A DNA stretch of 64,000 bases from Arcanobacterium sp. (GTDB lineage: Bacteria > Actinomycetota > Actinomycetes > Actinomycetales > Actinomycetaceae): NCBI GenBank assembly GCA_022778805.1, contig JALFSN010000006.1:279008-343007 (forward strand), in the 5' to 3' direction. Positions 5,254-16,610 of the stretch are shown in pieces. The first letter of the stretch is position 1; the number at the start of each line of letters is the position of its first letter. The notes beneath the pieces are model-generated. The model was not told where the DNA came from. It saw only the letters and a program-made list of their open reading frames with translations, and ran no database searches. Made by a program: the position numbers and the translations under genes.

Positions 5254-7866
5254 TCATTCCCTCTCAGCTGGCACAGCATCTGCCGTCGCGCCAGCACGCG
5301 CATGTTTACGGCGAATAAGCACAGCCCCAGCGCCCGCAAGTACCAGCGCGAAAGCTGCGAGAGCCAACCCCGTCACGGCAGAGCCAGTGAATGCGATACG
5401 TCCAGAACGTTGCGCGCCATCCGCACCAACATTGCCGTGCGATCCCGCGCTAGGAGCCTTTGCGGTAGGCGCCGCCGCACCAGAGGTAGGTGCCGGCGTC
5501 ACCGTACCAGAAGCTGACGGCGTCACCACATCAGCGGGTTTCTCGCGCGTTGGCAGATTCGTAAATACATCGGTACCCATAGGCTTCAGTCCGGCTTGCG
5601 CGGCATAGCCGAGGTGGCCATAGCCGTCAAGACCGCCAGCGACGGTGCCTGCAACCAGCTTATGATCCTGCTCAGATCCAATCCCTTTCGTCACGTTCAG
5701 CAAGTCTTCCCAGGTGCGGAGATTTGAATAATGGTTGTAGTGAGTGTGCGATACCGTGCCTGGCTTGATATATGGGGAGAGCAGCACAGCACCCACATTG
5801 CCGCCGCCTGGCGTGGCATCCTGAGCATCAAAGGTGGGGTATGGCGTCTCGCCTTCCCGCAGATGGCCTGGCGTGCCTTGCGCAGAAAGCGTAATCTTTG
5901 AACCCTCAGGGATGTCCGCGGTAGTTTCCAGCGGATTGCCGTCCTTGTCTACCAGGACGATACCGGCACCCCATGGGTTATGCGTATCAGGCGTGGCATT
6001 CGCCGTTATCGCCTCTGCACTCTGCATGGTATCGGGGAGAGCATTCTGGACTTGCCCAATGTAAGCACCTTTCGGAATGCCGTCGCCCGTCACTGCGCGC
6101 CCAAGATCCGTCACGCCAATAGAGTTGAGACTCAAGGTCTTACTGCCTTTGGAAGCTGCCTGCGTCACCGTCTTGGCAGCCGCAGCCTTACGCGGCGAGC
6201 CATCGAAGTTCTTCGCACCTACGACCTGATCGTCGCCGGTGCCAACCTCTGGACGCTGGATGTAGCCGTTGTCTCCTTGCCCTGGAGCTAGCTGGTTACC
6301 ATGTTCATCCTGCAGCAGAGTGCTATTGGGGCCCTGCGGTTCCATATTGACGTCTTGACCATTGATGTTTTGACCAGCCTGATCTGCGAGAATATAGTTC
6401 TTCGCCATCAGCGATGGAGCAGGGAATGTGTGGGGAGCGTACTGCTCATATCCCCGAGCGAGGTCTGCCATCGTCTGCTTATTGTATTGATACACCATGT
6501 TTGCGCGGGCGGCTGCAGCCATCTGCGTATCATCGGTGGCATTGTTGAACGACATCCCCGCGAATGGAGGGTTGGCCTCGTCAAAAGTAATTTCAATCAG
6601 GCCACCATCTTGATAGGCGTCAGAAGCCATAATCAGTGGCACATAGTAGCGCAGCCACAAGTCTGCCGCATACAGTCCGCCAACGTGGTTCTTCGGCTCC
6701 GTGAGTTGCGGCATATACGGCTCTAGGCCAGCTGGCTTGTAGATTGGCTTTCCATCAGCGCTGAAAGCACCAGAAAGATTATTGCCACCGCAGGAAGAAT
6801 CGTGTGCATCTGAGCAGTTGTTGGGAGTAATCCAGTTGAACGCCGGCACCTGATCAGCGGGAAGCTGCAAATCTTTGACTAATTCCTGCTCCTGATTCGC
6901 AATATGCGCAGCATCGGAATCGAGATTTTGCTTCACCGCCTTTGTGCCATTGGGAACCGGAGTGGTCAGGGCATCCTGGCCGGTGTTGTCGATGCCATTT
7001 AGCGAGTGGAACCAAGCGTTCGGGAAGTGCTTGGCTACGTAATAATCTTCGTTCTGGCCGGTGGCAGAGTTGGCAGTCTGACCGCCCGTGAAAGACGCGA
7101 TGCCTTTTGCTTTGTCGGCACTGGATGCTTTCATCAGCCGGCTCGTGGTGTTCGGATCGGCTTTCACCGATTTTGCAGCCATATTGCTGCGCGCTCCTGG
7201 AGCACCGCCCAGAGCATCTTCACGTCCAGGCTGGTTGCCCAAATCCTGCGCGTAGGATTTCCAGCTGATTCCTGCAGCGTCTAGCTGATTGAATAGCGTC
7301 GGAACTTGCTTCGGATATGTGCAGCCGTTTTCGCCATTCTCGGCGTTCGCACCGGCACCGGAGACCGCTTGGCCATACGTATCGTCCATGCTGAACGGCG
7401 TAGCTGGCTCGCCCGCAGCATCGACATGTTTCGTTTGAATGTGGCTATCATCTGCAAAGTCGAAATTCTCAACACTGCAGTCACTCTGAATATCGTACGA
7501 AGCGCTCTGTCCGGACGCCATTGAGGTGTAGTTGCCCATCGAATAATGGCTCGTACCAAAGTAGTGATCGAGCAAAGCACCCTGCGCAGGCAGATCTTTC
7601 CACAGGTACGAGTTCGGATTCAGAGAGGAAAACGTAGCATCGTACGACTTGTTCTCTAGGAGAATCACCCACACATGCTTGATGGTTCCAGGAGCAACGC
7701 CAGTCCCATTGTTTGAATTGACGACGATCGAGCCGTTTTCCTGTGGAGATAGAGCCGGCGTGACGCCGTTAGCGAACGCGCTAGGAGCAGTGAATATCGA
7801 CATACCTGCAGCTGCAGCCATGGCAAGGATGCCCGCAGCCATTTTCTTCTTCTTTTTTATTGCCAT
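5254..7866 (-). CDS. Cell-wall-anchored phosphoesterase (phospholipase C/acid phosphatase family)
   Basis: This 870-residue exported protein has a Sec signal peptide (basic KKKKK, hydrophobic core, cleavage near AFA). The phosphoesterase family core (PF04185 type) starts with IKHVWVILLENKSYDATFSS. Later motifs are GLIEITFDEANPPFAG and, near the C-terminal part, VGAVLLSPYIKPG followed by HTHYNHYSNLRTWEDLL. Enzymes of this family hydrolyse phosphate mono- or diesters outside the cell. The C-terminus has a Pro/Ala/Thr linker, IAFTGS, a hydrophobic helix and an RRKHAR tail, a sortase signal of the LAXTG kind, so it should be attached to peptidoglycan. It is longer than typical family members because of inserted loops. 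The downstream lipoprotein shares its operon. Confidence 0.88.
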   Translation of the reverse strand: MAIKKKKKMAAGILAMAAAAGMSIFTAPSAFANGVTPALSPQENGSIVVNSNNGTGVAPGTIKHVWVILLENKSYDATFSSLNPNSYLWKDLPAQGALLDHYFGTSHYSMGNYTSMASGQSASYDIQSDCSVENFDFADDSHIQTKHVDAAGEPATPFSMDDTYGQAVSGAGANAENGENGCTYPKQVPTLFNQLDAAGISWKSYAQDLGNQPGREDALGGAPGARSNMAAKSVKADPNTTSRLMKASSADKAKGIASFTGGQTANSATGQNEDYYVAKHFPNAWFHSLNGIDNTGQDALTTPVPNGTKAVKQNLDSDAAHIANQEQELVKDLQLPADQVPAFNWITPNNCSDAHDSSCGGNNLSGAFSADGKPIYKPAGLEPYMPQLTEPKNHVGGLYAADLWLRYYVPLIMASDAYQDGGLIEITFDEANPPFAGMSFNNATDDTQMAAAARANMVYQYNKQTMADLARGYEQYAPHTFPAPSLMAKNYILADQAGQNINGQDVNMEPQGPNSTLLQDEHGNQLAPGQGDNGYIQRPEVGTGDDQVVGAKNFDGSPRKAAAAKTVTQAASKGSKTLSLNSIGVTDLGRAVTGDGIPKGAYIGQVQNALPDTMQSAEAITANATPDTHNPWGAGIVLVDKDGNPLETTADIPEGSKITLSAQGTPGHLREGETPYPTFDAQDATPGGGNVGAVLLSPYIKPGTVSHTHYNHYSNLRTWEDLLNVTKGIGSEQDHKLVAGTVAGGLDGYGHLGYAAQAGLKPMGTDVFTNLPTREKPADVVTPSASGTVTPAPTSGAAAPTAKAPSAGSHGNVGADGAQRSGRIAFTGSAVTGLALAAFALVLAGAGAVLIRRKHARAGATADAVPAERE

Positions 7867-8240: not shown

Positions 8241-8246
8241 TATAGT
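8241..8246 (+). promoter_or_regulatory. -10 element for the Cys/Met leader peptide
   Basis: TATAGT ends 7 nt before the ATG at 8254 with no Shine-Dalgarno in between. This is the layout of a leaderless actinobacterial transcript. No good -35 is visible. Confidence 0.55.
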
Positions 8247-8253
8247 GACTCGC

Positions 8254-8376
8254 ATGAACACGACAACTCACCGAATGCAGGCAGCACACATGCGTATGAG
8301 CCTCACTTCTGGTATGCGTTGTATGTGCACTATGCGCAGCATGTGTCAATCTGATTGTTGTCGCTGCAGCTGTTGA
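8254..8376 (+). CDS. Cys/Met-rich leader peptide (putative attenuator uORF)
   Basis: A 40-codon ORF has 7 Cys codons (residues 23, 25, 31, 35, 36, 38, 40) and 8 Met codons (1, 8, 13, 15, 21, 24, 27, 30), with Cys concentrated in the last 18 residues, ending CCRCSC then TGA. No neighbouring reading frame has such a composition. It appears to be leaderless and is the first ORF on the path to the CjaA-like cysteine-family ABC importer that starts at 8948. Mycobacteria are known to use leaderless polycysteine ORFs as cysteine-responsive attenuators, so the analogy is strong. The 571-nt distance to the importer and the added Met codons are unusual. The TGA overlaps an ATG opening a 7-codon ORF (8376-8399). 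Confidence 0.7.
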   Translation: MNTTTHRMQAAHMRMSLTSGMRCMCTMRSMCQSDCCRCSC

Positions 8377-8947
8377 TGCTCGCGCAGGCATTGGCGTAAG
8401 GCTGTGCCGTACTACACAGTACGGTCGCAAACCCGTAGAGCTTCGCATAGCCCATAGAGTACGGAACACGGTAAGTGTCGAATGGCATAGCTCCGCACTG
8501 TAGAGCGCTCCGCCGATAGTTTTTTGAACACTGGGTACTGCGGGCGCCGTAAAAGCTCTTAGCTCAGCCCGTGTCTCGACTCCGCCCGCGTCTCAGCCTC
8601 GCATTTTCGCCTGAGCATTCTCGTCCGACGTCACTCACACCTCAATCGCCCACCGTATTCTCTACATATCGCACTGAGAAGCTCTACGCCTCTCGTTCTC
8701 GGCAAGCCACTTTTTACACATTACGCTCGGCACACCAAACCGTAGAGAGCGAGACACGGCGATGAAAAGATGCGCAAGTGCACAGCTGGAGCGGGAGTGC
8801 AACCGGTACTGGATTGTGGAGAGCGTAAATCTATGCGGACAAACGCATAAGACCATCACACATAAGACCATCGAAACAACCTCATAGGTCATCCGAAACA
8901 ATAGAGAACTAAAAATACAGAAAATAAAATATAGAAAGAGAGAAATC
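8377..8947. other. Long leader region of the ABC importer operon
   Basis: It contains a 6-bp stem-loop CCGTAC/GTACGG (8407-8412 with 8419-8424) shortly after the leader peptide stop, and a self-complementary GAGCGCTC (about 8503-8510) followed by six T residues at 8520-8525, which could form part of an attenuator. AT-rich sequence (8905-8940) just before the importer gene could also hold a second promoter. Short frames here (for example from the ATG at 8762) have no supporting features. Confidence 0.45.
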
Positions 8948-9853
8948 ATGGCACTATCAGGCATCCGAAAGCAGACACACATCTTCGGAATCATTGCCGC
9001 CGCAGCGTTGGCTCTCGCCGCTTGCTCTGGCCCAAACCTCAGCGATTCAGCAGGCACGGGCACTGCCGGTTCCGCCGCGAAGAGTGCACCTGCCACGGTT
9101 GGCGAGCGCACCCCAGAGCAAATCAAACAAGATGGCACTATTTACCTTGCCACGTTTGCTGATAAGTCTCCGTTTGGTTCGCTCGTGCAAGGCGATACCT
9201 ACGAGGGCTACGACATCGAATACGGCAATCGCATCGCCAAAGATCTCGGCGTGAAAGTCGCATGGCTACCCGTGGATGCCGCAGCGCGAGTCGAGTATCT
9301 CACCTCCGGAAAAGTCGATGCAGTGCTCGCCAATTTCACGGTGACCCCTGAGCGTGCTCAGCAAGTGGATTTTGCCAATCCGTACATGAGAGTTTCCTTT
9401 GGTGCCGTCTCGCCTAAAGAGCGCCCCATCACCGACGAAAAAGCCCTCGATTCCGCGAAAATCCTGATTGTGAAAGGCACGACGCAGGATGCCTGGATCA
9501 CCGCCAATAAGCCGCAATGGAACGTGACGAAGTACGAACAGTACGCCGACGTGACGAACGCGCTGGCTGACGGACGTGGTGACGTGTGGATTACTGACAA
9601 CACCGAGGCGCTTGCATATACCGCTAAAAACTCCGCTTTCGTCACAGGCATACAATCTTTTGGCGAGCCATCGTATATCGCTGCAGCCGTGCAGAAAGGC
9701 AACAAAGAGCTGCTCGATTGGCTCAACAATGAACTCGTCACGCTCGGCAAAGAGAAGTTTTTCCACAGCAACTTCGATAAGACCCTCAAGCCCGTCTATG
9801 GGAACGTCGTCAAGCCCGACGATCTCGTGATCGAGGGCGGGGCTACGGAATAA
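8948..9853 (+). CDS. CjaA-like amino acid ABC transporter substrate-binding lipoprotein (cysteine-binding type)
   Basis: The 301-residue lipoprotein has a signal peptide with lipobox LALAAC. The type II periplasmic-binding fold (family 3 SBP) follows. It includes GYDIEYGNRIAKDLG, RVEYLTSGKVDAVLANFTVTPERAQQVDF and PYMRVSFGAVSPK, and a C-terminal block VKPDDLVIEGG. From memory these blocks match the Campylobacter cysteine-binding protein CjaA closely, more so than GlnH/GluB. The likely ligand is therefore cysteine or cystine, which fits the upstream Cys-rich leader. A purine-rich GAAAGAGAG lies before the ATG. It heads a four-gene importer operon with two permeases and an ATPase. A 250-bp repeat-rich spacer separates it from the first permease. 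Confidence 0.9.
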   Translation: MALSGIRKQTHIFGIIAAAALALAACSGPNLSDSAGTGTAGSAAKSAPATVGERTPEQIKQDGTIYLATFADKSPFGSLVQGDTYEGYDIEYGNRIAKDLGVKVAWLPVDAAARVEYLTSGKVDAVLANFTVTPERAQQVDFANPYMRVSFGAVSPKERPITDEKALDSAKILIVKGTTQDAWITANKPQWNVTKYEQYADVTNALADGRGDVWITDNTEALAYTAKNSAFVTGIQSFGEPSYIAAAVQKGNKELLDWLNNELVTLGKEKFFHSNFDKTLKPVYGNVVKPDDLVIEGGATE

Positions 9854-9876: not shown

Positions 9877-10072
9877 GCTATTGGCTGTGAGCTATTACGC
9901 ACTACGAGTACAGCTGCGAATTGTGCTCAGCCGGACACTTGGGGCGCTCGCGAGCTACCACTGCGAGCCACCAGCCGCGAGCTACCACTGCGAGCCGTAG
10001 GCCACCAATCGCGAGCCCCGAGTTATTGGCCGTAAGCTATTAGCCGCGAGCCTTGAGCTACCAACCGTAATC
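9877..10072. repeat. Degenerate GAGCTAYYR-type repeats inside the ABC operon
   Basis: Variants of CGCGAGCTACCACTG / CGTGAGCTATTGGC recur about ten times. A perfect 20-bp direct repeat starts at 9950 and again at 9977. The array fills most of the 250-bp gap between the binding-protein gene and the first permease. Confidence 0.7.
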
Positions 10073-10103: not shown

Positions 10104-10766
10104 ATGAACTCAGATATTTTAGGGACGGCGATACCGCTTTTTGCGCAGGCGGCGCTCCTCACCGTGCGGATTTCTATCATCGGCATTGTGCTGGCCGTAG
10201 CCGTGGGGATCATCTGCGCCACCGTTCGCGAACTGCGAGTGCCGGTACTGCGCCAGATTGCCGGAGCATACATTGAGCTTTCGCGCAACACTCCGCTCTT
10301 AATCCAGCTGGTCTTTCTCTACTACGGGCTGCCCAAAGCGGGCATCGTACTCTCCGGCGAGACCTGCGCCATCATCGGGCTGGCTTTTCTCGGCGGCTCC
10401 TACATGGCGGAAGCATTTCGCTCAGGCCTTGACGCCGTACCAACCACGCAATACGAATCAGCCGTGGCACTGGGGCTTTCACGAATGCAAGCACTACGCA
10501 CAGTGCTGCTGCCGCAAGCCTTCGTTACGGCAGTTCCAGGACTGACGGCCAACCTGATTTTCCTCGTCAAAGAGACGTCCGTCGTGTCCATCATCGCACT
10601 GCCAGATCTCGTGTACCGTGCCCGAGACATGATGGGCGTGGGCTATCACACCGACGAGGCACTGCTGCTGCTCGTGGCGAGTTACTTCATTATTCTCGTG
10701 CCCGTCGCCGTTGCAGCGCGGATTTTCGAGAAGAAAGCGAGGCGCTATGTGGGTACCACTAACTGA
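10104..10766 (+). CDS. Polar amino acid ABC transporter permease (HisM/GlnP type), first subunit
   Basis: The 220-residue integral membrane protein has about five TM helices. The cytoplasmic EAA loop EAFRSGLDAVPTTQYESAVALGLSRMQALRTVLLPQA contacts the ATPase, and SRNTPLLIQLVFLYYGLP is the HisMQ-family signature. It should form a heterodimeric channel with the next gene product. No clear Shine-Dalgarno precedes the ATG at 10104. Its 3' end overlaps the next gene by 20 bp, implying translational coupling. Confidence 0.9.
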   Translation: MNSDILGTAIPLFAQAALLTVRISIIGIVLAVAVGIICATVRELRVPVLRQIAGAYIELSRNTPLLIQLVFLYYGLPKAGIVLSGETCAIIGLAFLGGSYMAEAFRSGLDAVPTTQYESAVALGLSRMQALRTVLLPQAFVTAVPGLTANLIFLVKETSVVSIIALPDLVYRARDMMGVGYHTDEALLLLVASYFIILVPVAVAARIFEKKARRYVGTTN

Positions 10767-11511
10767 CGCCGTCACGCACGCCGCCGGATTATCGCTGCCC
10801 GCGCGCCCCGCTCTAACGGCGTCACTGCCACTCACAATGACCTCCGATTGGATGCTGATTTTTCAAGGCAACAACTTCTTCAATCTGCTGCTCGGCCTGT
10901 GGGTGAGCGTGCGCATTGCGCTCATTTCCATGGCTGGCGCGATACTGCTTGGCGTGCTGCTCGGTATGCTGATGACCGCCAAAAGTCGTGTCCTGCGCTG
11001 GGTCAGCGTGGTCTATGTGGAGATTATGCGGCTTACCCCGCAAATCGTCTTGCTCTTCATCGTGTTTTTCTGGGCAAGTAGCAAAATGCAACTCACGATG
11101 AGCGGAGAAATGGCAGCGTTGATCGTCTTCACGGCGTGGGGAACCGCCGAAATGGGAGATCTTGTGCGCGGCGCTATCCAGGCCATCCCGCCACATCAGT
11201 ACGAGTCTGCACAAGCGCTCGGCCTCACCCATATCCAGACAATGCGCTACGTCACGCTCCCGCTCGCCATCCGGCAGCTCATTCCGCTCACCGTCAATCT
11301 CACCACTCGCATGATTAAAACGACGTCGTTGGTGTCTCTCATCGGCGTCATCGAAATCCTGAAAATGGCGCAGGTGATTATTGACCGCGGCCGTTTCGAC
11401 TATCCGAACGCGGCACTGTGGGTGTATGCCACCGTGTTTTTCCTCTATTTCATCGTCTGCTATCTCATCTCCCTCGTGGCTGCTTATCTAGAAAAGAGAC
11501 TCGCATTATGA
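10747..11511 (+). CDS. Polar amino acid ABC transporter permease (HisM/GlnP type), second subunit
   Basis: A 254-residue permease with the same fold as its neighbour. It has IMRLTPQIVLLFIVFFWASS in the place of the RNTP motif and EAA-loop sequence GAIQAIPPHQYESAQALGLTHIQTMRYVTLPLA. The ATG at 10747 is preferred over the earlier in-frame start at 10711 because GAGG lies 5 nt before it; an ATG at 10837 would give the more usual family length, so the first 30 residues are uncertain. Its stop overlaps the ATPase start (ATGA at 11508-11511). Confidence 0.88.
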   Translation: MWVPLTDAVTHAAGLSLPARPALTASLPLTMTSDWMLIFQGNNFFNLLLGLWVSVRIALISMAGAILLGVLLGMLMTAKSRVLRWVSVVYVEIMRLTPQIVLLFIVFFWASSKMQLTMSGEMAALIVFTAWGTAEMGDLVRGAIQAIPPHQYESAQALGLTHIQTMRYVTLPLAIRQLIPLTVNLTTRMIKTTSLVSLIGVIEILKMAQVIIDRGRFDYPNAALWVYATVFFLYFIVCYLISLVAAYLEKRLAL

Positions 11512-12401
11512 CTAGCTTTCCTGATCCTCTCACCCCATCAACATCCATATTCGGTGACGCTGCTGCATCTACTACTCGTGACGCCGGAGCACCTGTCGAG
11601 GCTACCCCTACCAGCATCACTATGCCCACCCCCGTGGACGCCGGTACCCAAGATGCCCACAGTACCGTACTATCGCTGCTCGACGTGCAAAAAACGTACC
11701 CGAACGGCGTACACGCCCTGCGCGGAATCTCGCTAGCGGTGAAGTCAGGCGAAGTGGTGGCCATCATCGGACCCTCAGGCTGTGGAAAATCCACACTGCT
11801 GCGCACAATCAACGGCCTGACCCCCATCACCGCCGGTCACATCACTTTTGAGGGAGCCGATATCGCCCAGCCTGGCACCAAGTGGGAAGATGTGCGCCAG
11901 AAAATCGGGATGGTGTTTCAAAGCTATGATCTCTTCCCACACCTGAGCGTGCTGAAAAATTTACTGCTCGCCCCGCGCGTGGTGAAGGGGCAGAAAGATG
12001 ACGCCGTGCGCGAGCGCGCGCTCGCCCTGCTGGAGCGGGTGGGGCTGAAAGATCGTGCTCAGTCTCTGCCGAGCCAGCTCTCTGGCGGCCAAAAACAGCG
12101 CGTCGCCATCGTGCGAGCCTTGATGATGCAGCCTGAGCTGCTCCTGCTCGACGAGATTACCGCCTCACTCGATCCGGAGATGGTGCGTGAGGTGCTCGAC
12201 GTCATTCTCGATCTCGCCCATCACGGCATGACTATGCTCCTCGTCACTCACGAAATGGCTTTCGCTCGGGCAATCGCCGACCGCGTGGTGTTTATGGACG
12301 CCGGACAGATCGTAGAAATGGGGCAGCCGCACGAATTTTTCACTGCACCTCGCACCGAGCGCGCCCAAAAATTCCTGCGCACATTTAGCTTTGATGACTA
12401 G
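11508..12401 (+). CDS. Amino acid ABC transporter ATP-binding protein (GlnQ type)
   Basis: The 297-residue ATPase carries Walker A GPSGCGKST, Q-loop MVFQSYDLFP, signature LSGGQKQR, Walker B LLLLDEI and switch-His LLVTHEM. These are the features of the GlnQ/HisP family that energises polar amino acid uptake. The start is the ATG in the ATGA overlap with the permease. About 50 residues before the first family block (LLDVQKTYPNGVHALRGI) form a Thr/Pro/Ala-rich, low-complexity extension not normal for this family. It completes the operon beginning at 8948. Confidence 0.92.
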   Translation: MTSFPDPLTPSTSIFGDAAASTTRDAGAPVEATPTSITMPTPVDAGTQDAHSTVLSLLDVQKTYPNGVHALRGISLAVKSGEVVAIIGPSGCGKSTLLRTINGLTPITAGHITFEGADIAQPGTKWEDVRQKIGMVFQSYDLFPHLSVLKNLLLAPRVVKGQKDDAVRERALALLERVGLKDRAQSLPSQLSGGQKQRVAIVRALMMQPELLLLDEITASLDPEMVREVLDVILDLAHHGMTMLLVTHEMAFARAIADRVVFMDAGQIVEMGQPHEFFTAPRTERAQKFLRTFSFDD

Positions 12402-12773: not shown

Positions 12774-15700
12774 ATGATATTAAGAAGACTAGCTACTTCT
12801 ATAACCACGTCCATGAGCATAGCTGCTCTCGCTTTTACATCCTTTACTCCGTTGGCCACGGCAGATGAACCGACATCTGGCGGCTGGAATGGAGCGGCGG
12901 CAGAAATCGCACTGCCCAGCACCGTACCCAGCTTCGACGGCTTCACGGAAACTGCTGGCACGTGGACGCTCGCATCAGGAGCGCGCATCGTCACCGAGAC
13001 ATCTACGGCGGATCGCGCAGAGATGCTTTCCACGGAGCTCACCGCTTATCTCGGGGCGAGCGTGCCGGCGGTCGTTGGCGTAGCAGCTACTGATAAAGAC
13101 GTCCGCTTAGCGCTTGCCGCTGATCGCACTGATCTTGGCGACGAAGGATTTGAGATGAGCATCGGCGAGGGAGGGGTGACGATCACCGCCGCTAAAGATG
13201 CTGGCATCTTTTATGGCACGCGCACCCTCAGCCAGTTGCTACGCCAAGAAAGCCGCGGAGATCAGCAGCTCACATTGCCTGGAGGCACTGGCACATCTGT
13301 GCCCAAATATCGCCAACGCGGTGTCATTCTCTGCGCCTGCCAAATCAACATCTCCCCCGAGTGGGTCGATCGTTTTCTGGATGATATTGCCGATCTGCAC
13401 ATCAACCAAGTGCTCATGGAGATGAAAGTAAAGAGCGATAACTATCCAGACACTCAGACGTGGAGCTACTACAGCAAAGCGGACGTCGAAAAGTTTGTGC
13501 AGAAAGCTGAAAAGTACAATATCGACGTCATTCCAGAAATTAATTCGCCTGGGCACATGAATATCTGGCTGGAAAATTCGCCGCAGTATCAATTGGTTGA
13601 TAGAAATGGCAGATATTCCCCTGATCGTCTTGACATTTCCAAGCCAGAAGCTCGCCAGCTGCTGAAAGATCTCATTGATGAGTATGACGGCGTGTTTGAT
13701 ACCGACTACTGGCACATGGGCGCTGATGAATACATGATCGGAAGCGCTTATGGGAATTATCCGCAGCTCGCCGAGTATGCCCGCGAGCGCTTTGGTGCTC
13801 AAGCTACGGCCAATGATGCTTTCACTGCGTTTATCAACGAGATTGATGAGTATCTCAACGGAAAAGGGAAGCACCTGCGGGTGTTTAATGACGGCGTCGT
13901 GCGCTCCGCGCAGCAGAAGCTCGATACCGACGTGGTAGTGGACTACTGGTTGAATAAAAGCTCCTACACTCCTCAGCAATTCCTTGACGACGGCTATGAG
14001 ATTATGAATACCACGCAGGCTCTCTACTGGAGCCGCCAGATGTCATACGGCGTCGATTCACAGAATCTCTACAACTCGCACTGGAACGTAGGGAAGTTTG
14101 ACGGAAACCAGCAGGTAGACCAGAACCATCCGAATTTACTCGGCGCACGCGTAAGCCTCTGGCCAGACAATTCCTACATGACGGAGAACGAGGTGGAGCT
14201 GCAGACTGCTGATTCTATTGCATTCTTGGCACAGATGACCTGGAGCGCCTCGAATCCCTGGCCTCGCTGGGAGGGCACCGACGGCATGAAAGCCGCTATT
14301 GACTCGATTGGCAAGCCCACAATTCGCGCCAAAGTGGCTGGCACTAATGTGGCTCCTGGGATTTATGCTTTCCCAGAGCTGGCTCCCGTAGGCACCGGCC
14401 CGTGGCAGATCACCCCTACCTATGATGGCTATTATCAGGTGCGCAACACAGCTAGCGGCACCTGCTTGAGCATTGATCAAAATGCCACGAAACACCTGAG
14501 CGTAGTGACGGAAGTGGGCGCCAGGGCAGTGCTCGCTGACTGCAAAGATATGAGCGTAAAATGGCCGAATCGCGGCAGCGATTCCCCCATGGCACGCACA
14601 CATCAAAAGTGGCAAATCGTGCAACGTGACGCCGGTAGAGTGTCGCTACGAGGCGCCGTCACGAATCAGTATCTCGCCGTGGCCACCGGCAATGAAAAGC
14701 ATGTGGATATTCAAGGTGTGAGCACCCCTGAGGTGCGCAATGATCCCGCTATGCTGGCACGTACTACCTCACGCGCAGGCAATCACGTAGCAGCGGGTAC
14801 ACTGGTACAATTGCCACCGGATTTGGTAAGCACTAACGGGGTGATCTCCGATAATGCTCTCTTTACAATGGCTCGTGAAATGGGCATGAGTGCCAACCCT
14901 GGGAGCGTGGCAAACGTCAATCCCAGCACGTGGAAAGACGTCACCGTGACGCTATTTGCCCCATCAGACACTGACCTCCCAGCTTCTAGCGTGGGCGTCA
15001 ACCTCTCGGATGGGTGGCGGGCACTTCCGGCCACTGTGAATATTCCGCAGATGCCAGCAGGATCCACTGCCACGGCGGTGTTCCGCGTGCAAAATACTAC
15101 GGCTACTGAGGGTACAGCTGAGTTCACGTGGACAGCAGGAAACAAGACTGCCACCACGAGCGTGCGCTTGCAGGGAGCTATCGGCCCTAGACTCTGCGGC
15201 GGGTTTACAGATATTTCTACGAACTCCGAAGAACGTGGCGGAGAAGGGGCAGTGAGCGGGTACGTGAGCGCGGCTTTCGATACGAACGCCGATGGCACCG
15301 CAAAGATGGATACTTTCTGGCACACTCGCTGGAGTGGCGGAAACGATCACTTCCCATTCTGGGTGGTGTTTAATCCCACGACGGCGCTCAATGGAAACTA
15401 CATGACGACGATTGAGTATGCTCCGCGCCAGAATAAAGTGAACGGGCGTATCAAGAGCTACGAAATCTACCTCTCCTCCACGGCAAAAGCTGGCGGAGAT
15501 GATTGGGGTGACGCCGTGCTCAGTGGCGAACTGGAAAACACCACCAGTTGGCAAACTATCACGCTCCCTCCGAATACTCCTGGGCAATACGTGAAATTCC
15601 AGATCACCGACGTCTGGGACGAAGTACCTGGAACCGAAGATAGCTTCGCTGCTGCTGCAGGGTTCTGCGTCGCTTCTGCCGTGCCAGCGGCAGAACTGGA

Positions 15701-16610
15701 AAATCCGACGCAGCCCGATAATCCAGTGGTGGCTGGAGAGGAGTTCCACCCTGGCACGCCAGCTGGCGATGATCCCACCGTGTCTATCGCGCTAACGGTA
15801 GCTGCTAACGCGAGTGGAACTCTGAACACTGAACTGACTCCTATTGACATAAACGCCACTGTCGATCCAGCACGAGGATACGTGCTCACATTCAATCCTG
15901 CACTCCCACAAGGGCTGAACTACGATGCGACATCTGGAACGTTGGTGGGCACCCCCAAGCAAGAATTTGATGGAGACATCACCGTGACGCTGGCTCAAGG
16001 TGAGCAGAGCAAGACAGCTACGCTGCATCTGACCATCAAGCCACCAGCAGACACGCCGCACGCCGTCACTCCTGCAGCCCATTCCAACGTGGAAGCAGGG
16101 GCTGAAGATCCGGTGAGTTGCACGATAGCCCCATACGCTAACGTGACGCCCATCGAGGGTGTGCACTACACCGTCACTATCACAGATACCAATGGCGAGA
16201 ATCGCACTGCCACGCCAGATAACGACGGTCGCGTGAACTACGGCTACGGGGAGACGATTAGCATCACCGCCAAAGCGGAATCGGGCTATACTTTCCCAGC
16301 TAATGCCACTTCGCAGTGGAGTTGGAAAGCTCCCACCAAAGGATCGCTGAAGTGCAATCCTGGCGGAGAAAATCCGTCTAGCGGCGATGTAGTGACGCCC
16401 TCAGTACCTGGCGCCCCGCACGCCGACATACCAAAAGTGAATACGCCAAAGTCAGGCAAGCCACAAGGCTCTGCCCCCGACGTCAGCGCCGTCACTCCGC
16501 CACGTGTGGCCAATACAGGATCACAGACAGCAGCGGTGATTGCTCTGGCACTAGCAATGCTGGGAATCGGCACAGCAGCACTAGCTACTGCTCGCCGCCG
16601 ACGTAGCTGA
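12774..16610 (+). CDS. Cell-wall-anchored GH20 beta-N-acetylhexosaminidase, multidomain
   Basis: This 1278-residue exported enzyme has a signal peptide (about 1-30) and a GH20 N-terminal domain (about 45-160). The GH20 TIM barrel follows (about 175-515), with the catalytic Asp-Glu pair in WHMGADEYMIG. A ricin-like/trefoil carbohydrate-binding segment (about 540-680) comes next, then an NEW3-like beta domain. A discoidin/CBM32 domain (about 805-965) contains FWVVFNPTTALNGNYMTTIE, and Ig-like repeats follow. The C-terminus is VANTGS, a hydrophobic helix and ARRRR, a sortase signal. It should release GlcNAc/GalNAc from host glycans at the cell surface. GGGGAG precedes the ATG. A strong terminator follows at 16783-16831. 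Confidence 0.92.
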   Translation: MILRRLATSITTSMSIAALAFTSFTPLATADEPTSGGWNGAAAEIALPSTVPSFDGFTETAGTWTLASGARIVTETSTADRAEMLSTELTAYLGASVPAVVGVAATDKDVRLALAADRTDLGDEGFEMSIGEGGVTITAAKDAGIFYGTRTLSQLLRQESRGDQQLTLPGGTGTSVPKYRQRGVILCACQINISPEWVDRFLDDIADLHINQVLMEMKVKSDNYPDTQTWSYYSKADVEKFVQKAEKYNIDVIPEINSPGHMNIWLENSPQYQLVDRNGRYSPDRLDISKPEARQLLKDLIDEYDGVFDTDYWHMGADEYMIGSAYGNYPQLAEYARERFGAQATANDAFTAFINEIDEYLNGKGKHLRVFNDGVVRSAQQKLDTDVVVDYWLNKSSYTPQQFLDDGYEIMNTTQALYWSRQMSYGVDSQNLYNSHWNVGKFDGNQQVDQNHPNLLGARVSLWPDNSYMTENEVELQTADSIAFLAQMTWSASNPWPRWEGTDGMKAAIDSIGKPTIRAKVAGTNVAPGIYAFPELAPVGTGPWQITPTYDGYYQVRNTASGTCLSIDQNATKHLSVVTEVGARAVLADCKDMSVKWPNRGSDSPMARTHQKWQIVQRDAGRVSLRGAVTNQYLAVATGNEKHVDIQGVSTPEVRNDPAMLARTTSRAGNHVAAGTLVQLPPDLVSTNGVISDNALFTMAREMGMSANPGSVANVNPSTWKDVTVTLFAPSDTDLPASSVGVNLSDGWRALPATVNIPQMPAGSTATAVFRVQNTTATEGTAEFTWTAGNKTATTSVRLQGAIGPRLCGGFTDISTNSEERGGEGAVSGYVSAAFDTNADGTAKMDTFWHTRWSGGNDHFPFWVVFNPTTALNGNYMTTIEYAPRQNKVNGRIKSYEIYLSSTAKAGGDDWGDAVLSGELENTTSWQTITLPPNTPGQYVKFQITDVWDEVPGTEDSFAAAAGFCVASAVPAAELENPTQPDNPVVAGEEFHPGTPAGDDPTVSIALTVAANASGTLNTELTPIDINATVDPARGYVLTFNPALPQGLNYDATSGTLVGTPKQEFDGDITVTLAQGEQSKTATLHLTIKPPADTPHAVTPAAHSNVEAGAEDPVSCTIAPYANVTPIEGVHYTVTITDTNGENRTATPDNDGRVNYGYGETISITAKAESGYTFPANATSQWSWKAPTKGSLKCNPGGENPSSGDVVTPSVPGAPHADIPKVNTPKSGKPQGSAPDVSAVTPPRVANTGSQTAAVIALALAMLGIGTAALATARRRRS

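Follow-up and report, generated by a model that had tools for sequence, protein, structure and literature searches.

The intergenic region ahead of a CjaA-type importer operon in the window (the whole 64-kb stretch of Arcanobacterium DNA analysed) contains a short ORF rich in Cys codons, which very probably serves as a ribosome-read cysteine sensor controlling the importer; we infer its translation, the stalling and the direction of control. Transcription would begin with the first base of the leader's own start codon (8254), and a 70S ribosome would initiate on the leaderless mRNA and run into the Cys codons. With ample Cys-tRNA, the ribosome would get to the stop codon and depart, leaving the importer low; with scarce Cys-tRNA, it would pause in the Cys cluster and importer expression would go up.

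The first-pass annotation had described an ORF of 40 codons with 7 Cys and 8 Met codons, a TATAGT located 7 nt before its ATG and no SD (Shine-Dalgarno sequence), and all of this was confirmed on the sequence (Table 1). If transcription starts at 8254, there is no space for an SD before the leader ATG. With a -10 element 6-7 nt before the ATG and no SD, the ORF has the make-up of a putative leaderless gene. It is the first coding feature in the intergenic region before the importer; the other side of this region is bounded by a divergent phosphoesterase-family gene (5254-7866, minus strand).

Table 1. Features of the leader region and the importer operon (window coordinates).
Feature	Position	Strand	Remarks
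Extended -10 (TGC-TATAGT)	8241..8246	+	would put transcription start at or adjoining 8254; same TANNNT 6-7 nt before relatives' leader ATG
Leader ORF	8254..8376	+	leaderless, 40 codons, MNTTTHRMQAAHMRMSLTSGMRCMCTMRSMCQSDCCRCSC (ATG 8254-8256, stop TGA 8374-8376); basis: ORF reading, shuffles, recurrence in relatives
Putative sensor stretch	8320..8373	+	Cys codons 23, 25, 31, 35, 36, 38, 40; Met codons 24, 27, 30; relatives' Cys clusters at same end
7-bp stem-loop CCGTACT-ACAC-AGTACGG	8407..8424	+	30 nt past leader stop; no U-tract/T-run behind
C-rich, G-poor stretch	8556..8741	+	possible Rho-loading (rut-like) region, by inference only
CjaA-type cysteine-binding lipoprotein of amino-acid ABC importer	8948..9853	+	homology to solved structures
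Permease 1	10104..10766	+	importer operon
Permease 2 (start approximate)	10750..11511	+	importer operon
ATPase (start approximate)	11508..12401	+	importer operon

The top solved relatives of the importer binding protein were 1xt8 (4.5e-63) and 2yjp (1.7e-62), with the alignment spanning most of the protein. 1xt8 is CjaA, and cysteine binding is described for both proteins. By kinship along most of its length, the binding protein can be assigned to the CjaA type, as had been proposed, and the genes downstream of the leader appear to function in cysteine supply. A sulfite reductase domain (PF01077, NIR_SIR) was absent from all 10 Actinomycetaceae genomes tested, the window's genome among them, so reduced sulfur probably has to be imported in these bacteria, as judged from this single enzyme family. 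In the genomes without sulfite reductase, a cysteine importer is therefore a sensible target of control. Ribosome-read cysteine control would thus extend from the synthesis genes of mycobacteria to the importers of Actinomycetaceae that lack sulfite reductase.

The 900 nt preceding the importer were dinucleotide-shuffled 1000 times, and leaderless ORFs were scored by their Cys count in 12 codons. None of the shuffles produced such an ORF with at least 4 Cys (0/1000), and 3 of the 1000 produced one with at least 3. When both strands of the 64 kb were scanned, the ORF at 8254-8376 was the sole leaderless ORF with at least 4 Cys in 12 codons; the Cys content of the proteins encoded by neighbouring genes is 0.5%. 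The Cys-rich leader ORF is thus not a chance product. No other copies of the leader or the spacer were found in the genome. The leader rule was run over about 237 kb of it, and no convincing Cys leader turned up ahead of the PF01053 gene or any of the four PALP (cysK-like) genes.

To define leaders in other genomes, we used a strict rule: TANNNT, 6-7 nt, then an ATG opening an ORF of at most 60 codons, of which the final 10 include 3 or more Cys. In the sense direction, this architecture occurred at 11 of 39 ortholog importer loci, in 7 lineages; in the antisense direction of the same loci it occurred at none, the shuffle expectation being 0.00. The proposal of a Cys-codon leader for a cysteine importer is thereby supported. 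At distant importers, the rule found no leader (0/66 loci). Among the orthologs listed, the nearest binding protein is that of an Arcanobacterium sp. MAG (L035, 78% identity). The leaders found include MGNTPARLWLSTFNKCSHAMCSGCRAAACCC (Arcanobacterium MAG), MANRTTQMHTAMRGACVRTCMCPMCCMCCCR (Actinotignum importer), MEKKNTQYCFACALTAMVMSCMCCSVCCR (A. urinale), MFARQLIVPASMDAGRCLCCCR (Nigerium), MAHDFLTSACNAQCCAMCCCR (Ancrocorticia) and MEHPRMMQLGAHFTASSCRCCRSRQF (Arachnia). The codon cluster, whose absence from close relatives had been named as an argument against a sensor, is thus present in relatives. Leaders at L009, L152, L044, L049 and L051 narrowly missed the rule; those of L009 and L152 share the pattern MGF.A...CCxC..YSLAVSP, and that of L044 (MTSDIVFRMCPAFAGASCCRR) has the promoter spacing TATATT-7-ATG. 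No leader was seen at the 13 importer orthologs of genus g10 and at some others.

Between lineages, the 3'-terminal Cys cluster was retained, whereas peptide length and the remaining sequence diverged. The Cys codons of the leaders lie in frame: TGY was counted 51 times in frame 0, and the two other frames had 22 and 7. A short ORF with a conserved Cys-codon cluster at its 3' end is the apparent common element of these loci. The leader-to-importer spacer is 571 nt in the window (importer ATG at 8948) versus 35-333 nt in relatives; the leader of about 570 nt, pointed out earlier as distinctive, is indeed peculiar to this genome. Since peptide and downstream RNA diverge fast while the Cys codons persist, the set of leaders offers a natural series for identifying the essential parts of the attenuator.

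Cysteine leaders are known from other bacteria. Canestrari et al. (2020, Mol Microbiol 114:93; as cited in PMC9031893 and PMC13236596) are reported to have described cysteine-responsive attenuation by leaderless polycysteine short ORFs in mycobacteria, and ribosome-occupied leaderless Cys-rich ORFs were reported in mycobacteria by Shell et al. (2015; PMC4633059). Our Cys-cluster scan recovered mycobacterial-type leaders before sulfite/nitrite reductase genes, with the C-terminal ends VCTCCCLP (L231), VCSCCCLP (L237) and VCTCCCLA (L238). Like the mycobacterial polycysteine ORFs, the window leader is leaderless, has its Cys codons at the 3' end and lies before sulfur genes. Unlike them, it precedes a CjaA-type importer in Actinomycetaceae, is enriched in Met and is followed by a 571-nt spacer. 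An RBS-sequestering structure, in contrast to the mycobacterial type, was seen neither in the window nor in L035; it was seen in Actinotignum and indicated in L009 and L152. In its probable mode of action the leader groups with the known cysteine leaders; since folding of the window did not reveal this feature, we call it a variant of the mycobacterial control. Cysteine leader peptides were also predicted in Mycobacterium, P. acnes and B. longum by Seliverstov et al. (2005; PMC1262725); these share with the window leader the Cys runs near the stop and the lack of a conserved terminator, but lie before different genes, whereas our target is an importer and Arcanobacterium, Actinotignum and relatives are outside the genome list of that study. 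The uORFC-8-2 motif before cysS in Rhodobacterales, for which ribosome-mediated attenuation was inferred (PMC8632094), also has tandem Cys codons in its leader ORF; unlike the window leader, it has an intrinsic terminator and two prominent stems, and it belongs to unrelated bacteria and an unrelated gene. Cysteine leaders in Actinobacteria are therefore already known as a kind, and the importer leader in Actinomycetaceae is a new variant.

The earlier term 'attenuator' is right in kind, since a read-out through an SD hairpin is predicted in relatives (see below), but no such read-out is visible in the window. A classical attenuator was not found either: between the leader and the importer, no intrinsic terminator (hairpin plus U-tract) is present on the sense strand. 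A T6 run at about 8520 was rejected for want of a good hairpin in front of it. The stem-loop past the leader stop, noted previously, was confirmed, and a second AGTACGG at 8458-8464 could serve as an alternative 3' arm; the stem-loop was rejected as a terminator, no T-run following it. Rfam covariance models (T-box, SAM riboswitch and others) gave no match in the leader, and two tRNAs were the only matches in the window. Folding of the leader RNA does not exceed that of shuffled sequences (z = 1.0), and the spacers of the window and L035 do not align.

What the spacer does contain is the C-rich stretch, which ranks in the top 0.1% of 80- to 160-nt segments; 89 of 2538 spacer-length stretches (3.5%) attain the same level, however. 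Rho was suggested for the cysteine leaders of Mycobacterium, P. acnes and B. longum cbs (PMC1262725), and a C-rich stretch without an intrinsic terminator fits that guess. In the spacers of leader loci without a start-site switch, C over G was 1.2-6.5, and in those of L009 and L152 it was 0.86 and 0.95; because the Actinotignum spacer, in which a switch is present, has 1.26, the contrast between switch and non-switch loci is not clean. As the output in the window we tentatively favour, post hoc and with somewhat less than even confidence, premature transcription termination, perhaps by Rho at 8556-8741.

The Met codons had been put forward as an addition that might let the leader sense both sulfur amino acids. 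Their enrichment is statistically real across lineages. With codons treated as independent, Met made up 24 of 263 codons (9.1%) in ten leaders, whereas comparable random ORFs had 2.0% (p = 1.4e-9); the excess persisted without the two richest leaders, those of the window and Actinotignum (12/194, p = 7e-4). ATG occurred 24 times in frame in the ten leaders, and each of the two other frames held 2. The idea that Met is just a quirk of the window was rejected, as the excess recurs across lineages. It is echoed by a second Actinotignum leader, MAFNTAAFVSASMALGTCMCMCMRMCMCR, which has a TACTCT 7 nt before its ATG and ends in alternating Cys and Met (TCMCMCMRMCMCR). This leader (L251, 6509-6598, plus strand; L259, minus strand) precedes a cystathionine beta-lyase/gamma-synthase-type gene and a cystine-type ABC importer, and is retained in A. 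timonense with His as the final residue.

Pausing at either Cys or Met codons could control the importer, and both the in-frame Met excess and the alternating leader kept in A. timonense speak for such a dual sulfur sensor. We nevertheless consider it doubtful: Met positions vary among leaders, L152 has no Met past the start, Met is missing from the mycobacterial leader tails, and the ATGTGY/TGYATG runs could stem from short repeats or from RNA pairing, as the Cys codons of L009 and L152 lie in a hairpin. Equally speculative is the broader idea that mixed Cys/Met leader ORFs of Actinomycetaceae act as a single ribosome-read sensor for Cys and Met together and control several uptake and conversion operons (that of the CjaA-type importer and, in Actinotignum, also the cystathionine-lyase plus cystine-importer operon), with the output step freely swapped between start-site RNA switching and another mechanism. 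In any case, the in-frame excess and the alternating leader make two-amino-acid reading by one leader directly testable.

For the preferred cysteine sensor, the output might alternatively take the mycobacterial form, in which a stalled ribosome releases a sequestered importer SD. Translation attenuation is reported for M. smegmatis (Canestrari et al. 2020, as cited in PMC13236596 and PMC9031893), and predicted helices of this sort were found in relatives. Employing a folding model in which the ribosome is a mask on the mRNA and the readout is the cost of opening the importer SD and start codon, we obtained for all five Actinotignum genomes (5/5) a cost of 4.3-10 kcal/mol while the ribosome sat on Cys16-26. 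Once it had got as far as Cys28 or further, the cost was 11-14.5 kcal/mol, and at the stop it was 11.5-13.4 kcal/mol. None of 60 spacer shuffles of L036 equalled its switch (0/60). By eye, CGCAUUAUCCAC pairs with GUGGAUAAUGCG or, via CCACGGU, with ACCGUGG over the GUG start. An RNA switch is thus predicted in Actinotignum that hides or frees the importer start in the expected direction; its arms are identical in the five genomes and so show no covariation.

In L009, which belongs to the window's genus, and L152, the SD lies within a helix of 9-10 bp, with pairing-preserving changes between the two species, and an upstream GGCUGAG is an alternative partner for the SD-pairing strand. When a ribosome was placed on the Cys codons of an mRNA not yet extended to the SD, the competing helix rose in L009 from 0.27 to 0.83-0.86, whereas in L152 it barely changed (0.58 to about 0.60). 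At equilibrium, the SD remains closed in both, so their switch would need to be kinetic. The hairpin and the competing helices of these loci make a good structural test case. Using the same model, we found no significant start-site switch in the other leader loci (L042, L043, L044, L050 and L053).

Neither the window nor L035, its nearest relative, showed SD sequestration in any modelled ribosome state; in the window, the importer SD lies in an A-rich region that is open throughout (about 2 kcal/mol). The test is insensitive: three mycobacterial sulfite/nitrite reductase leaders were negative as well, so the negative result in the window carries low weight. Apparently, release of a sequestered SD is an unlikely output for the window.

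Two further explanations dispense with a codon sensor. Cys-rich peptides can bind metals, and the small peptide might itself function in metal or thiol binding; this is highly improbable, as only the 3'-end Cys cluster is kept between lineages, not the length or the rest, and the position before the importer is retained. The 571-nt spacer could contain a second promoter, and a single weak promoter-like match in it (8902-8930, with 0.8 expected) speaks for the view that the ORF arose by chance and the importer is driven by a separate promoter. This view is just as implausible, as the shuffles (0/1000) and the conservation in relatives stand against it.

Some additional features were observed. 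The leaders of L009 and L152 are located roughly 220 nt ahead of the importer match, and the hairpin holding their Cys codons carries compensating changes. The long spacer of the window contains a 41-codon ORF with 3 Cys (8762-8887, plus strand); nothing similar was seen in the L035 spacer. A degenerate 13-nt tandem repeat, GCGAGCTACCACT, separates the binding-protein gene from that of permease 1 (9950-9995). Directly past the importer operon lies a large GH20 glycosidase gene (12774-16610, plus strand), whose product carries a VANTG-like anchor at its C-terminus, besides F5/8 type C and ricin-type lectin domains.
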